Source of the DNA: an uncultured SAR86 cluster bacterium
GTDB taxonomy: Bacteria > Pseudomonadota > Gammaproteobacteria > Magnimaribacterales > TMED112
Length of the DNA stretch: 64,000 bases
Assembly (NCBI GenBank): GCA_902535365.1
Contig: CACATF010000001.1
Span: forward strand, 380,077-444,076
Direction: 5' to 3'
Shown: in pieces, positions 1 through 5,454 of the stretch
Layout: every line of letters begins with the position of its first letter
Position numbering within the stretch: the stretch's first letter is position 1
The notes under the pieces: model-generated
The model's database searches: none
The model's input: only the letters and a program-made list of their open reading frames with translations
What the model was told of the DNA's origin: nothing
Position numbers and translations under genes: made by a program

Positions 1-279
1 GTTGAACACCCATTTTTAAAAGAAATAACACAAGATAAAGATGTGAGGCTGATCGGAATAAGCTACAAAGATCTACCGGAAAATGCAGAGAGATACTTAG
101 AAAAAAATGGTAATCCTTATGTGTTTTCAATAAGTGATTTTAATGGAAGTTTTTCTTTAAAACTTGGTGTTACTGGTGCACCAGAAACATTTTTAATTAT
201 TGATGGTGAAATAGTTAAACACCGAATTGGTGAGGTTAATTTAGAGGTTTGGAATGAAAAGTTTAAAGATTATTTTTAG
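1..279 (+). CDS. ccmG: CcmG/DsbE cytochrome c maturation thioredoxin (5' partial)
   Basis: The frame is open from base 1, so the gene begins upstream of the window; the ORF-track GTG at 43 is internal. The visible part is the C-terminal half of a thioredoxin fold. It contains the cis-proline segment GVTGAPETFLI followed by the IDG turn and the IGEV strand that are typical of CcmG/DsbE. The CxxC active site must lie upstream of base 1. CcmG is a periplasmic membrane-anchored reductant of apocytochrome c in System I maturation. It overlaps ccmH by 26 bp, which supports the assignment. CcmG rather than a generic TlpA protein is judged from the ccmH neighbour. Confidence 0.85.
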   Translation, partial: VEHPFLKEITQDKDVRLIGISYKDLPENAERYLEKNGNPYVFSISDFNGSFSLKLGVTGAPETFLIIDGEIVKHRIGEVNLEVWNEKFKDYF

Positions 280-637
280 TATTATTTTAATTAGCCATTT
301 TATTTCAGCAGAGCAGTTATATTCAGACCTCTCCATACAAGAGCAGCAGAGGCTTGAGTATTTATCTGACAACATCAGATGTCCAAAGTGTTCCTATGGA
401 AACATTTCAAGCTCTAACGCACCAATTTCAAAGGATTTGAAGAAAGAAATTGCTCAAATGATTAAAGATGGATACACGGATGACGAAATATTTAATTTAT
501 TAGCAAATCGTTATGGTGATTACATTATTTTAAAAACAACTCCATCTAACAATAAGCTTATTTTTATACTGCCTTTAATGATTTTTCTTATATCTATATT
601 TCTTGTAACCACATATACTATAAAAAAATCTAAATGA
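254..637 (+). CDS. ccmH: CcmH cytochrome c-type biogenesis protein
   Basis: This 127-aa protein has an N-terminal signal peptide, the redox motif RCPKC (about residues 42-46) in the context NIRCPKCSYGN, a three-helix domain ending in YGDYIIL, and one C-terminal transmembrane helix (about 102-122). This is the standard short CcmH/NrfF layout. CcmH works with CcmG to keep apocytochrome heme-binding cysteines reduced for ligation by CcmF. It overlaps ccmG upstream and shares an ATGA overlap with smc downstream. In many gammaproteobacteria a ccmI/TPR gene follows; here there is none, and smc comes next. Confidence 0.9.
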   Translation: MKSLKIIFSIILISHFISAEQLYSDLSIQEQQRLEYLSDNIRCPKCSYGNISSSNAPISKDLKKEIAQMIKDGYTDDEIFNLLANRYGDYIILKTTPSNNKLIFILPLMIFLISIFLVTTYTIKKSK

Positions 638-2844
638 GACTTAAAAGCTTAAAATTAGCAGGGTTTAAAAGTTTTGTTGACCCAATAGAAATTGATTTCC
701 CAGGAATCATGTGCGGCATTGTTGGCCCAAATGGATGTGGTAAATCAAACATAATCGATGCCATTAAATGGGTGAAAGGGGAGCTATCAGCAAAGAGCCT
801 AAGAAGTGAAAGCCTGCAAGATGTAATTTTTAATGGATCTGACAATAGAAAACCTGTCAGCCACTGTTCCGTAGAGCTATGCTTTGATAATTCTGAAAAT
901 TTTCTAGGTGGAGAATATCTAAAATTTGATGAAGTTAGTGTAAAAAGGGAGATGGGTCGTGATGGGCAGTCCACTTATTTTATTAATAATGCAGTTGCAC
1001 GAAGAAGGGATGTGCAAGATCTTTTTCTAGGAACAGGTTTAGGGGGAAATAGCTATGCAATCATAGAGCAAGGCATTATTTCAAGCTTGGTCGGCGCAAA
1101 GCCTGAAGAGCTAAGAAGTTATGTAGAAGAAGCAGCAGGCATATCCAAATACAAGGAAAGAAAAAGAGAAACAGAATCAAGAATCAGAAGAACCTCGGAA
1201 AATATTTCAAGACTCAAAGATCTCGAGGATGAAGTCAAAAGGTCAATCAGAAGGTTAAATGCAGAAGCAAACCTTACTACTAGGTACAAGAAATTAAGAA
1301 CTAAAGAACAAGAGTTCCAAAAATATATTGTGAATGATGATTTGAAGAGTCTTTTAAGTCACATGAACAAATCAGAAAAAGAAAATAAGTCAATTGACCA
1401 GGATATAGAGAAGATTGATGGTGAAAGATTGGCAGTAATCGCTAAAAGGGACGTATGTAAAACAAACCTTATGGAAGGTTTAAAAACTTTGGAGGAAGCC
1501 CAAAGATCATTTTATGAATCAGGAGCAAAAATTTCTTTAATTGAAGAGAAAGAGCGATCTGTATCAAGCAGAATAGAGGAGCTTACAAGTGAAGAGAAAA
1601 AAAATCTTATGAACCTCGATGAACTTGCAAAAGAACAGTCTTCCTCAAAGACAAATCTCGATGAAATTAACCCAAAGATAAAATCAGATATAAAAAACAA
1701 GACCAAAAAATTAATTGAAAAACTTGAAGCAGAGCTTTCATCTAAGGACCAAACATCAATTGAGTCTGAGTTTATGGATACATGGAAAAAGGGCTATGAA
1801 TATGGAATGGGGGAAAATGATGACGCATCTGAAAAGATTAATTCTCTCAAAGAGCAATTTATATCAAGGAATGCACAAATAACAAAAGACATAAAAGAAC
1901 TTAAGGCAAATTTATCAAAAGAGAAAGTAGACCTAACAGAGTTAATTGAAAATAGAAAAAATAACGAACTTCATGTCATTGAGCTAAGGTCTGCGCAAGA
2001 CAAAGCAAACGAAGAGTTGAGAGGCTATGAAAATGCAATTTCACGCTTTGAGGCTGAAAAAGAACAAATTGTTCACCAAAAAAATGAACAAGAGGTAAAT
2101 CGCAGAAGTCTTGAAATTGAAGTTAAAGAAAAACAAGAAAAACTTAATTCATTTGATGATGTAAAAGACATTGAGGGTGAACGAGATCAAGTGATTATTG
2201 ATTTAGAGAAGTTACAAAAAAGAATTATGAATCTTGGGCCAATTAATTTTGCTGCACCAGAAACCTTGGAAGCAGAAAAACAAAGAAAAGAAATTCTATC
2301 AGGACAAATAGAAGAGCTTGAAACCTCTTTAACTAAATTAGATGAAGCAATTAAAAAAATAGATAGAGAGTCTAATAAGTCTTTTCATGGGTGTCTTACT
2401 TCGGTAAATAAATATCTAGAAGAGATGTTCCCAAAACTTTTTGGTGGCGGTTTTTGTAAATTAGATCTTATTGATAAAACGGAAGACTCAGGGCTTCAAT
2501 TAATGGCAAGGCTTCCAGGCAAAAAGAATACAAAATTATCTCAACTATCTGGAGGAGAAAAAGCACTAACCGCATTAGCTCTCGTATTTTCACTATTCTC
2601 AATTAATCCAGCACCATTTTGTCTGTTAGATGAGGTGGATGCTCCTCTTGATGATGAAAATACCTCAAGATTCATCAATCTTGTAAATGAGATGTCTGAG
2701 AAGGTTCAGTTTATATTTGTGACCCACAATAAGATTTCAATGGAAAAAAGCACACACCTTCTCGGGGTTACAATGCGTGACCTTGGAGTTTCAAAAGTTG
2801 TATCTGTAGATGTAGAACAAGCAATGGAGTTAGCTCAGTCTTGA
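634..2844 (+). CDS. smc: Short SMC chromosome-partition ATPase without a recognisable hinge
   Basis: The protein has both SMC head halves: Walker A GPNGCGKSN (31-39), the GTGLGGNSYAIIEQG segment (about 130-145), the C-motif QLSGGEKALTALAL (about 637-650) and Walker B FCLLDEVDAPLDD (about 662-674) with a following THN. It is 736 aa, against roughly 1,150-1,200 for bacterial SMC. Between the heads are two charged coiled-coil stretches (about 168-370 and 400-560). They are separated only by a short helix break containing MDTWKKGYEYGMGEN, with no globular glycine-rich hinge of about 150-200 aa. The frame is uninterrupted and codon use matches the neighbours, so it is not an evident pseudogene. 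smc-zipA-ligA is a known gammaproteobacterial order. It should bind ATP and DNA as a dimer; how it dimerises without a hinge is open. Confidence 0.9.
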   Translation: MRLKSLKLAGFKSFVDPIEIDFPGIMCGIVGPNGCGKSNIIDAIKWVKGELSAKSLRSESLQDVIFNGSDNRKPVSHCSVELCFDNSENFLGGEYLKFDEVSVKREMGRDGQSTYFINNAVARRRDVQDLFLGTGLGGNSYAIIEQGIISSLVGAKPEELRSYVEEAAGISKYKERKRETESRIRRTSENISRLKDLEDEVKRSIRRLNAEANLTTRYKKLRTKEQEFQKYIVNDDLKSLLSHMNKSEKENKSIDQDIEKIDGERLAVIAKRDVCKTNLMEGLKTLEEAQRSFYESGAKISLIEEKERSVSSRIEELTSEEKKNLMNLDELAKEQSSSKTNLDEINPKIKSDIKNKTKKLIEKLEAELSSKDQTSIESEFMDTWKKGYEYGMGENDDASEKINSLKEQFISRNAQITKDIKELKANLSKEKVDLTELIENRKNNELHVIELRSAQDKANEELRGYENAISRFEAEKEQIVHQKNEQEVNRRSLEIEVKEKQEKLNSFDDVKDIEGERDQVIIDLEKLQKRIMNLGPINFAAPETLEAEKQRKEILSGQIEELETSLTKLDEAIKKIDRESNKSFHGCLTSVNKYLEEMFPKLFGGGFCKLDLIDKTEDSGLQLMARLPGKKNTKLSQLSGGEKALTALALVFSLFSINPAPFCLLDEVDAPLDDENTSRFINLVNEMSEKVQFIFVTHNKISMEKSTHLLGVTMRDLGVSKVVSVDVEQAMELAQS

Positions 2845-3488
2845 ACCCTTTATATGAGTATTTAATTTATTTAGTCCTCGGTTTAACTATTGGGGGCATT
2901 ATAGTTCTTAAGCTAATTGATATTTATAAAAAGAGAGATGATATTCAAATATCAAAAGATCTAAGAGAGAAGAAGAAAGCAAAATTAAAACAATCACTAG
3001 AATCTGAAACTGGCAAGGCAGAAGAAATCAATGAGGTGAGGGTGCCAAGGCAAGGAGAGCTTGATCTGCCTGATGCTAACGAGGGAAAATTCATAGTCCT
3101 TCATTTAAAAGCTAAGCTCGATAACAAACCTTCATTTGAATTGTTAAAACAAAAAATTACAGCTAATGGGCTAGATTATAAGAATGGATACTTTGAAAAC
3201 CCTGGCAAAAATTCAACACCAAGCTTTTTAGTTCTAAATGGAGAAGAACCAGCTACCTTTTCAGATAATGCGGAGGTAAAAGTAATTACTATTGCTCTTC
3301 ACTTAAAAGGGCAAAGAAATGTTGAAAAAACATTTAATAAAATGTTGGAATTGGGAAGGTCAATTGCAGATGCTTGGGATATGAAGTTGTGTGATGAGAG
3401 CTTCAACACTATTTCAGAACAAAGAATTAGTGAATATAAAAATGAAGCACATGAAGTTGATCTAAAGAATGGCTCCTATGGCGGATAA
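2841..3488 (+). CDS. zipA: ZipA-like cell division protein
   Basis: This 215-aa protein has an N-terminal transmembrane helix (about 8-26, YLVLGLTIGGIIVLKLI), a short charged linker, and a C-terminal ZipA FtsZ-binding domain (about 83-205: KFIVLHLKAK, then FLVLNGEEPATF, then ITIALHLKGQRN). ZipA tethers FtsZ tails to the inner membrane at the Z ring. The start is TTG at 2841, overlapping the smc stop as TTGA, and the first membrane segment follows directly. The linker is much shorter than in enterobacterial ZipA. The position between smc and ligA matches Pseudomonas-type synteny and strengthens the call. Confidence 0.88.
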   Translation: MNPLYEYLIYLVLGLTIGGIIVLKLIDIYKKRDDIQISKDLREKKKAKLKQSLESETGKAEEINEVRVPRQGELDLPDANEGKFIVLHLKAKLDNKPSFELLKQKITANGLDYKNGYFENPGKNSTPSFLVLNGEEPATFSDNAEVKVITIALHLKGQRNVEKTFNKMLELGRSIADAWDMKLCDESFNTISEQRISEYKNEAHEVDLKNGSYGG

Positions 3489-5454
3489 GACAGAATTGTT
3501 GCAATTAAAAAAAGAAATTGAGCGACACAATAAGCTCTATCATGAGCAAGATAATCCTGAAATATCTGATGCTGAATACGATGCTTTATATCAACGGCTA
3601 AAAGAGCTTGAAAATATACTAGGTGCAGACCAAGACTCACCAACTCAACAAGTAGGAGCACCATCTTCAAGAAAATTTGAGAAGCATAATCATTTAAAGC
3701 CAATGCTTTCTTTGAGCAATGTTTTTTCAGATGACGATTTTTATAAATTTGAGGAAAGAGTTCTAAAAAGACTCAATACTGATAAAACAACTTTTTCTGT
3801 TGAGCCAAAATTTGATGGAATTGGAATCTCGCTAACATATGAAAATGGTAAGTTAACGAAAGCTGTTACCCGAGGAGATGGGGAAACTGGTGAAGTTGTA
3901 ACTGATAACATTAAAACTATTGTAAAAGTTCCTCATGTGATCGAGCATTCAAGTCCTAAAACAATTGAAATAAGGGGAGAAGTTTTTTTTAGACTTGATG
4001 ACTTTAGCAATATCAACTCAAAGCTTGAGGCTGATAATTTAAAAACATTTGTTAGTCCAAGAAATGCTGCTGCAGGCACTCTTAGAAACCTAGATATTGA
4101 AATAGTCAAACAAAGACCACTGGATATATTTTTTTATGGAATTGGTGGACATTCAGACGATGCCAATTATAAATCATACGAAGAATTTGTAAATTTTTTG
4201 AAAAAAAATAATTTTCCTGTGTGCGATTTAATCTCATTTGGCAATGCAGAGCATGTGGTTGGAAGTGTAGCTAAGATTTTATCATCACGGGAAGATCTAG
4301 ATTATGAAATCGATGGTGCGGTAGTAAAAGTCAATGACTTCCTACACCAACAAAAGCTTGGATTTGTTTCTAAAGCACCAAGATGGGCAGTCGCATGGAA
4401 GTTTCCAGCATCAGAGAAGTATTCCAAGGTAACTGATATTTTATTTTCAGTTGGCAGGACAGGTATTGTGACACCTTATGCAACTATTGAGCCAGTTCTA
4501 ATTTCTGGAGCAAATATTTCAAATGTTACTTTGCATAATATGGATGAACTAAGCAGGCTTGATATCAAAGTAAATGATACTGTTTTAGTAAAAAGAGCTG
4601 GAGATGTAATTCCTCAAATTACAAAAGTTAATGCCGATGTTAGGGATGGGTCAGAAACTGAAGTAAATATTCCTAACCAGTGTCCTTCATGTGGTAATAC
4701 CTTAAAAACAGAAGGGCCTTTCATGAAATGTGATGCTGGTATGAGTTGCCCAGCACAATTATTAGGATATTTTGAACATTTTGTTTCTAGAAAAGCAATG
4801 AATATTGATGGACTTGGGTACAAGATAAATGAAAGTCTCATCAACCTTGGATTTGTTAGCCAGGTAGCAGATTTATTTAAACTTAGACAACATGAATCCA
4901 AGCTTAAAAGCCTTGAAGGTTTTGGTGAAAAATCAATTGATAACCTATTTACTAGCATTGAGGCTGCAACCAATCCAACCTTAGAGGTTTTTATTAACTC
5001 ATTAGGTATTCCTGAAGTGGGTGAATCAACTGCAGCAGCTTTAGCAAGACACTTTAAAAGTTTTGATGTTTTACGTAGTGCTAGCTTTGATGAACTTATG
5101 GGCATAGATAGCATTGGTGATGTAGTTGCCAACAAAATCTTAAATTTCTTTAAATCTGACCCTATTGGCATCGATGCATTGCTAGAGGTTTTAGAGGTTC
5201 AAAATTTTCAATTAGGCGATTTGGATCATCTTGATGGGTTAAAGATAGTCATTACTGGATCGTTTGATGAGTATAGTAGAGAGGAACTTAAGGATCTAAT
5301 TAAAGAAAGGGGTGGGATTCCGTCAAGTGGTGTAAGTTCAAATACAAATTATGTTATTTTAGGAGAGAATCCTGGTTCAAAACATAAAAAAGCGTTGGAT
5401 TTGGGGATTGAAATAATAACTGAAGAAAATATCAAACCATTTTTAAAAATATGA
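3478..5454 (+). CDS. ligA: NAD-dependent DNA ligase LigA
   Basis: The full-length ligase is about 658 aa. The adenylation domain carries the catalytic lysine in EPKFDG (Lys111 from this start) and the RGDGETGE segment. An OB fold follows, then a C4 zinc finger (CPSCGNTL...CDAGMSCP, about 400-425), helix-hairpin-helix repeats, and a C-terminal BRCT domain (about 580-655, LKIVITGSFDEYSREEL). It seals nicks using NAD+ in replication and repair. Two ATG codons are possible, 3469 and 3478; I chose 3478 (MADKTELLQ), but 3469 adds only MAP. The gene overlaps the end of zipA and shares ATGA with the next gene. Confidence 0.97.
   Translation: MADKTELLQLKKEIERHNKLYHEQDNPEISDAEYDALYQRLKELENILGADQDSPTQQVGAPSSRKFEKHNHLKPMLSLSNVFSDDDFYKFEERVLKRLNTDKTTFSVEPKFDGIGISLTYENGKLTKAVTRGDGETGEVVTDNIKTIVKVPHVIEHSSPKTIEIRGEVFFRLDDFSNINSKLEADNLKTFVSPRNAAAGTLRNLDIEIVKQRPLDIFFYGIGGHSDDANYKSYEEFVNFLKKNNFPVCDLISFGNAEHVVGSVAKILSSREDLDYEIDGAVVKVNDFLHQQKLGFVSKAPRWAVAWKFPASEKYSKVTDILFSVGRTGIVTPYATIEPVLISGANISNVTLHNMDELSRLDIKVNDTVLVKRAGDVIPQITKVNADVRDGSETEVNIPNQCPSCGNTLKTEGPFMKCDAGMSCPAQLLGYFEHFVSRKAMNIDGLGYKINESLINLGFVSQVADLFKLRQHESKLKSLEGFGEKSIDNLFTSIEAATNPTLEVFINSLGIPEVGESTAAALARHFKSFDVLRSASFDELMGIDSIGDVVANKILNFFKSDPIGIDALLEVLEVQNFQLGDLDHLDGLKIVITGSFDEYSREELKDLIKERGGIPSSGVSSNTNYVILGENPGSKHKKALDLGIEIITEENIKPFLKI

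Follow-up and report, generated by a model that had tools for sequence, protein, structure and literature searches.

The window, by which we mean the whole 64,000-nucleotide stretch of DNA analysed here, carries on its forward strand an smc gene encoding a protein of 736 aa without a hinge (634..2844). The open reading frame starts with ATG, contains no internal stop and sits between ccmH and zipA-ligA. Upstream of it, the cytochrome c biogenesis gene ccmH (254..637, + strand; PF03918, E 2.8e-24) occurs near smc in most SAR86 loci and anchors the synteny. Downstream, the smc stop is overlapped by the TTG start of a short zipA (2841..3488, + strand; PF04354, E 5.5e-10), followed by ligA, which encodes the NAD-dependent DNA ligase (3469..5454, + strand; PF01653, E 1.2e-86). 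The zipA product is divergent and 215 aa long; its ZipA_C domain passes the Pfam cut-off, and TIGR02205 gives 28.9 bits, under its cut-off of 119.65.

All parts of the smc gene are encoded on the + strand. The N-terminal ATPase head half (residues 1-169; 634..1140), recognised from the sequence, an SMC_N match and the structure model, holds the Walker A motif GPNGCGKSN at residues 31-39 (724-750). It is followed by the N-arm, modelled by AlphaFold as one long helix of about 25 nm (residues 170-337; 1141..1644), by a tip that replaces the hinge and that no hinge profile matches (residues 338-397; 1645..1824), and by the C-arm and joint, also placed from the AlphaFold model (residues about 398-575; 1825..2358). 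The C-terminal head half (residues about 576-736; 2359..2841), delimited from the sequence and its invariant columns, carries the signature LSGGEKAL at residues 638-645 (2545-2568) and the Walker B motif FCLLDE at residues 662-667 (2617-2634). The core residues of all three motifs are invariant among 46 SAR86 Smc sequences.

This split ABC head with its three motifs is that of an Smc protein. The window protein reaches 733 bits with TIGR02168, the prokaryotic Smc equivalog (cut-off 567), a genome-wide search for SMC_N matches found only this one Smc in the assembly, the smc-zipA-ligA order is preserved, and the SAR86 heads sit among gammaproteobacterial Smcs in trees built without the actinobacterial hinge-less sequences. 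We therefore conclude that the ORF encodes the genuine Smc subunit of an Smc-ScpAB condensin, which was probably inherited vertically. The further SMC_N matches in the genome are a 374-aa ORF, probably RecF judging by its size, and a weak match in a 211-aa ORF. An earlier sequence-only reading of this DNA had described an intact 736-aa frame with both head halves complete and had taken it, on synteny, for the true chromosomal smc, all of which our analysis bears out.

A hinge is generally counted among the standard components of SMC complexes. When we aligned the window protein with a full-length gammaproteobacterial Smc, it covered canonical residues 1-360 and 839-1167. The missing segment, canonical residues about 361-838, comprises the entire hinge, which lies at about 495-650 in the full-length protein, together with the distal half of both arms, and about 60 residues stand in their place. 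The sequence-only reading had estimated arms about 400 residues shorter than usual; the shortening is real, but against 13 full-length gammaproteobacterial controls (1,161-1,177 aa, versus 736 aa) the figure is about 430. It had also seen a helix break near residue 380 where a hinge was expected, and was right that no hinge lies there, although the element is in fact a tip spanning residues about 338-397.

The Pfam SMC_hinge profile had no match in the window protein or in a six-frame search of 61 SAR86 genomes; it matched 12 of the 13 controls. However, this profile misses some real hinges (the Caulobacter hinge gave no match), so we rejected it as sufficient proof of absence, and a phylum-wide scan with it was uninformative for the same reason. 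We therefore trained a hinge HMM on 9 or 10 of the 13 gammaproteobacterial control Smcs; it scored 115-224 bits in 13/13 controls and at most 4.7 bits in all SAR86 Smcs. Further full-length gammaproteobacterial Smcs scored 64-222 bits, except for a divergent 1,153-aa Smc on a very long branch (L297 in genome G318, family f52), which gave -27 bits and possibly carries a divergent hinge. The six-frame hinge search of the 61 genomes found no separate hinge protein encoded elsewhere in SAR86. Since a hinge is not found in it, the window protein is classed as a hinge-less variant of bacterial Smc rather than as a canonical Smc.

The structure models agree with the profiles. An AlphaFold monomer model of the window Smc, based on a 46-sequence alignment, consists of the heads, a continuous N-arm helix at residues 170-337, two short helices at 347-364 and 370-391, and a C-arm starting at residue 398, with no alpha/beta domain between the arms and a tip confidence (pLDDT) of about 48-68. 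In a second model, made for an Smc from a sister family, the long helices flank a single short helix (342-359). Within the limits of monomer models, neither contains a globular hinge domain, and the best Foldseek match of both was the Pyrococcus Smc head with its coil and joint. The tip helices were more amphipathic than shuffled sequences in three of four cases (p about 0.015). A DNA-binding basic tip is unsupported, the net charge ranging from -5 to +1, and a zinc hook was rejected, as CXXC occurs in none of the 75 SAR86 Smcs scanned. In the window's genus the tip, with its motif FW..GY..G.G, changes more quickly than the arms (identity is 0.23-0.27 over residues 341-380), whereas in family f3 it is about as conserved as the arms and a tip motif is conserved. 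Tip sequences differ from one SAR86 family to another, and similarity between family tips was not demonstrated.

The hinge-less form is fixed across the SAR86 order and is not confined to the genome of the window. Every intact Smc from four SAR86 families, drawn from MAGs, single-cell genomes and two closed chromosomes (CP097968 and CP097973), is without a hinge, and no SAR86 relative with a hinge-bearing full-length smc was found. Relatives that carry a name in the genome collection belong to the SAR86 cluster, and TMED112 is among the nearest. Smc length is 732-736 aa in the window's genus (18 genomes with a match), 727-732 aa in f3, 809-810 aa in f4, 821-830 aa in f2 and 995 aa in genus g9 of f3, compared with mostly about 1,160-1,270 aa for the other gammaproteobacterial Smc frames listed in a class-wide sample. 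Within a family it hardly varies, in agreement with the published idea of a tuned Smc arm length (PMC5344682). The best explanation is that the loss of the hinge and distal arms goes back to the ancestor of the SAR86 order or further. A collapsed assembly or a decaying gene might be suspected, since the genome of the window is a draft of 16 contigs at 86.6% completeness, but the same length and anatomy recur in dozens of MAGs and single-cell genomes as well as in both closed chromosomes, and the heads are strongly conserved and free of stops. We consider an assembly artefact refuted and an artefact of any kind scarcely credible.

The 995-aa proteins of genus g9, which includes SAR86E (L057, L058 and L124-L127), derive from the short hinge-less form by duplication of facing arm segments. 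They correspond to the short form plus two tandem duplications, one in the N-arm at an offset of 120 (residues about 225-450) and one in the C-arm at an offset of 143 (residues about 569-800). The duplications score 127-244 and 209-267 at these offsets, respectively, against at most 33 at the other offsets tried, and the duplicated copies in L124 share up to 50-53% identity. In the antiparallel coil these duplicated stretches should lie opposite one another, and the protein still has just one tip. Thus the arms were lengthened on both strands with the hinge still absent; retention of a hinge in the 995-aa form was rejected, as its hinge HMM score is at most 4.7 bits and the duplications explain its length.

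The partners of the complex have been retained. In the genome of the window, scpA and scpB are adjacent and lie about 125 kb from smc; each protein was found in 56/61 SAR86 genomes. The ScpA sequence aligns over almost the whole Pfam model, and the N-domain of ScpA resembles the protein of a solved kleisin-N/Smc interface. ParB was present in 35/41 SAR86 genomes, including 21/21 of the more complete ones. A search of the 41 genomes for the SbcC-type Walker B domain of MukB-like and SbcC proteins gave nothing above the cut-off, so that neither MukB nor Rad50/SbcC was found among them; nor did we find a second SMC. The window Smc itself scores 18 bits with PF13558 (cut-off 27) and is not a MukB/MksB protein by this measure. 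With ScpA, ScpB and ParB kept and no replacement found, the SAR86 condensin pathway looks complete apart from the hinge, as judged from gene content. The closed genome TMED112-A1 (G006, CP097968; L227-L277), a single contig, had no match for scpA, scpB or most of their neighbourhood. The searches and stretches examined in this genome together span its whole chromosome. A selective loss of ScpAB there was set aside, as most surrounding genes are also without a match, and the gap resembles a missing segment or a more extensive deletion.

Outside SAR86, the hinge is also missing from the Smcs of two gammaproteobacterial families whose genomes measure about 1.0-1.1 Mb: f128, at 926-944 aa (L180, L181, L187-L204), and f38, at 923-938 aa (L182, L183, L207-L215). 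All of them score at most 4.4 bits with the hinge HMM. From the order in which relatives are drawn, f38 is inferred to belong to one order with f149 and f203, whose Smcs keep the hinge, which would mean either an independent loss or a gene transfer. However, the AU test on Smc trees did not reject a single hinge-less clade (p 0.43), and in the head-only tree f128 and f38 join SAR86 in a group that also takes in one long-branch Smc with a hinge. We have accordingly dropped the claim that the Smc trees prove independent hinge loss in f128 and f38. The sequence-only reading had also suggested that the compact Smc could reflect genome streamlining. Streamlining alone is too simple, since most gammaproteobacterial genomes of at most 1.7 Mb (n=34) have a full-length Smc and one SAR86 genus has re-lengthened its arms by duplication. 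In a 1.5 Mb genome (G063) the Smc is 1,000 aa long and short-armed yet still has its hinge (L184; 83 bits), so arm shortening can happen without hinge loss. In family f29, the smc of a complete 1.0 Mb genome (G214:C1:453171-456669) looks fragmented with stops, while among its congeners G307 (0.9 Mb) has no smc match and G085 (1.7 Mb) a full-length Smc; this route looks like smc decay, different from the remodelling in SAR86.

Compared with canonical bacterial Smc (TIGR02168), the SAR86 protein has the same head halves, motifs, joint, synteny, ScpA and ScpB partners and single copy, but it is without the hinge and distal arms and measures 736 aa instead of about 1,170. RecN likewise has an SMC-like head, a short coil and no alpha/beta hinge. 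To our knowledge, however, RecN has no kleisin partner, and the window Smc scores 30.5 bits with TIGR00634 against a cut-off of 407.85, which sets it apart from RecN. Rad50/SbcC and the archaeal ASRP proteins (ClsN/Sph) share with it an ABC head, an antiparallel coil and the absence of an SMC hinge fold, but in the published accounts consulted they dimerise through a CXXC zinc hook (PMC12153180, PMC9389158), which SAR86 lacks, and their models give the window Smc 30-61 bits, far under the family cut-offs. The engineered Mini-Smc and the Smc with a Rad50 zinc hook of B. subtilis resemble it in their shortened arms and in the replacement of the hinge by a non-hinge dimerisation domain, but they are artificial and either keep the hinge or gain a zinc hook (PMC5344682), whereas SAR86 has neither. 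A natural parallel in anatomy comes from a marine actinobacterial clade in which hinge-less SMCs were reported in 2025; as described there, they are natural, abundant in the ocean and devoid of both hinge and CXXC zinc hook (PMC12153180), a combination also found in the SAR86 Smc. Taxonomy and the Smc tree, in which SAR86 sits among the gammaproteobacterial Smcs sampled, place it in another phylum. The section of that article on hinge-less SMCs reports no kleisin partners, and the article does not name SAR86 (PMC12153180).

Since condensins dimerise through the hinge, the sequence-only reading had proposed a condensin held together by other means or a new compact architecture, and our results support it. 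How, then, might two such proteins be held together? In B. subtilis, an unrelated zinc hook can substitute for the Smc hinge with normal growth, and a strain without the smc hinge region is described as an smc null (PMC5344682), so it seems to be dimerisation, more than the fold, that counts. In addition, arm-arm contacts are said to help hinge-less B. subtilis Smc dimerise (PMC5526789). We therefore consider some dimerisation at or near the SAR86 tip likely. Our preferred reading, to which we would give a probability of roughly 50%, is an Smc-ScpAB condensin that has lost its hinge and distal arms and would dimerise through its helical tip, arm contacts and bridging by ScpA. By turning back on itself at the tip, the protein would form an antiparallel coil of about 25 nm, and two such rods would pair through their amphipathic tip helices, forming a small helical bundle, and through contacts along the arms, with ScpA bridging both heads. 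The tip would thus take over the hinge's task of keeping the distal ends together, ATP-driven head engagement could still power ParB/parS loading and DNA loop formation, and any hinge-specific DNA gate or channel would have been lost. Tip pairing is favoured by the amphipathic helices, by tip conservation in f3 and by the single tip kept upon arm duplication; the low tip pLDDT and the fast drift in the window's genus, on the other hand, are unlike a tight, specific interface.

Those same two features, together with the shortness of the tip, suit a molecule without a distal dimerisation domain, in which the tip is a simple coil turn and the rods are held by arm-arm contacts, ATP-dependent head engagement and ScpA. 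The arm contacts reported for hinge-less B. subtilis Smc and the retention of ScpA also speak for this arrangement, but the smc-null description of the hinge-region deletion, the amphipathic helices and the conserved f3 motif count against it, and we regard it as possible, though doubtful. In a broader form, SAR86 Smc-ScpAB would fold and segregate the chromosome without any distal dimerisation domain, a state reached more than once in small-genome bacteria; we think this rather improbable, but if it were true, the core motor could do without the hinge, which would then not be universal. A hypothetical SAR86 adaptor clamping the tips together is unlikely: the FW..GY..G.G motif of the window's genus could be its docking site, but no candidate turned up, the genes around smc are ordinary, and the variation of the tip between families means that a common adaptor would have to co-evolve. 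It is more unlikely still that the protein has ceased to be a loop-extruding condensin and become a short DNA-tethering or repair ATPase of RecN-like shape, as its compact coil without a hinge fold might suggest, since the kleisin ScpA, ScpB and ParB are all retained, the equivalog score is high and the RecN score far under its cut-off, and no replacement condensin was found.

A search of the open-licence literature for SAR86 together with SMC or ScpA found no report of a hinge-less Smc in this group. Hinge-less SMCs as such were already known; what is new here is an entire gammaproteobacterial order without the hinge, in which the kleisin partners are identified and arm length forms an internal series. 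The hinge has been assigned roles as dimer clasp, as DNA contact and, in Wadjet, as a gate for obstacle bypass (PMC12647877). An abundant ocean order nevertheless keeps Smc, ScpA, ScpB and ParB without it, which makes the SAR86 Smc a natural test of whether a hinge is needed at all. In this order one motor comes in versions that differ in their arms: a helix of about 168 residues, the longer arms of the sister families, and arms lengthened again by paired duplication. SAR86 thus offers a natural series for testing the roles of the hinge and of arm length in DNA loading and loop extrusion.
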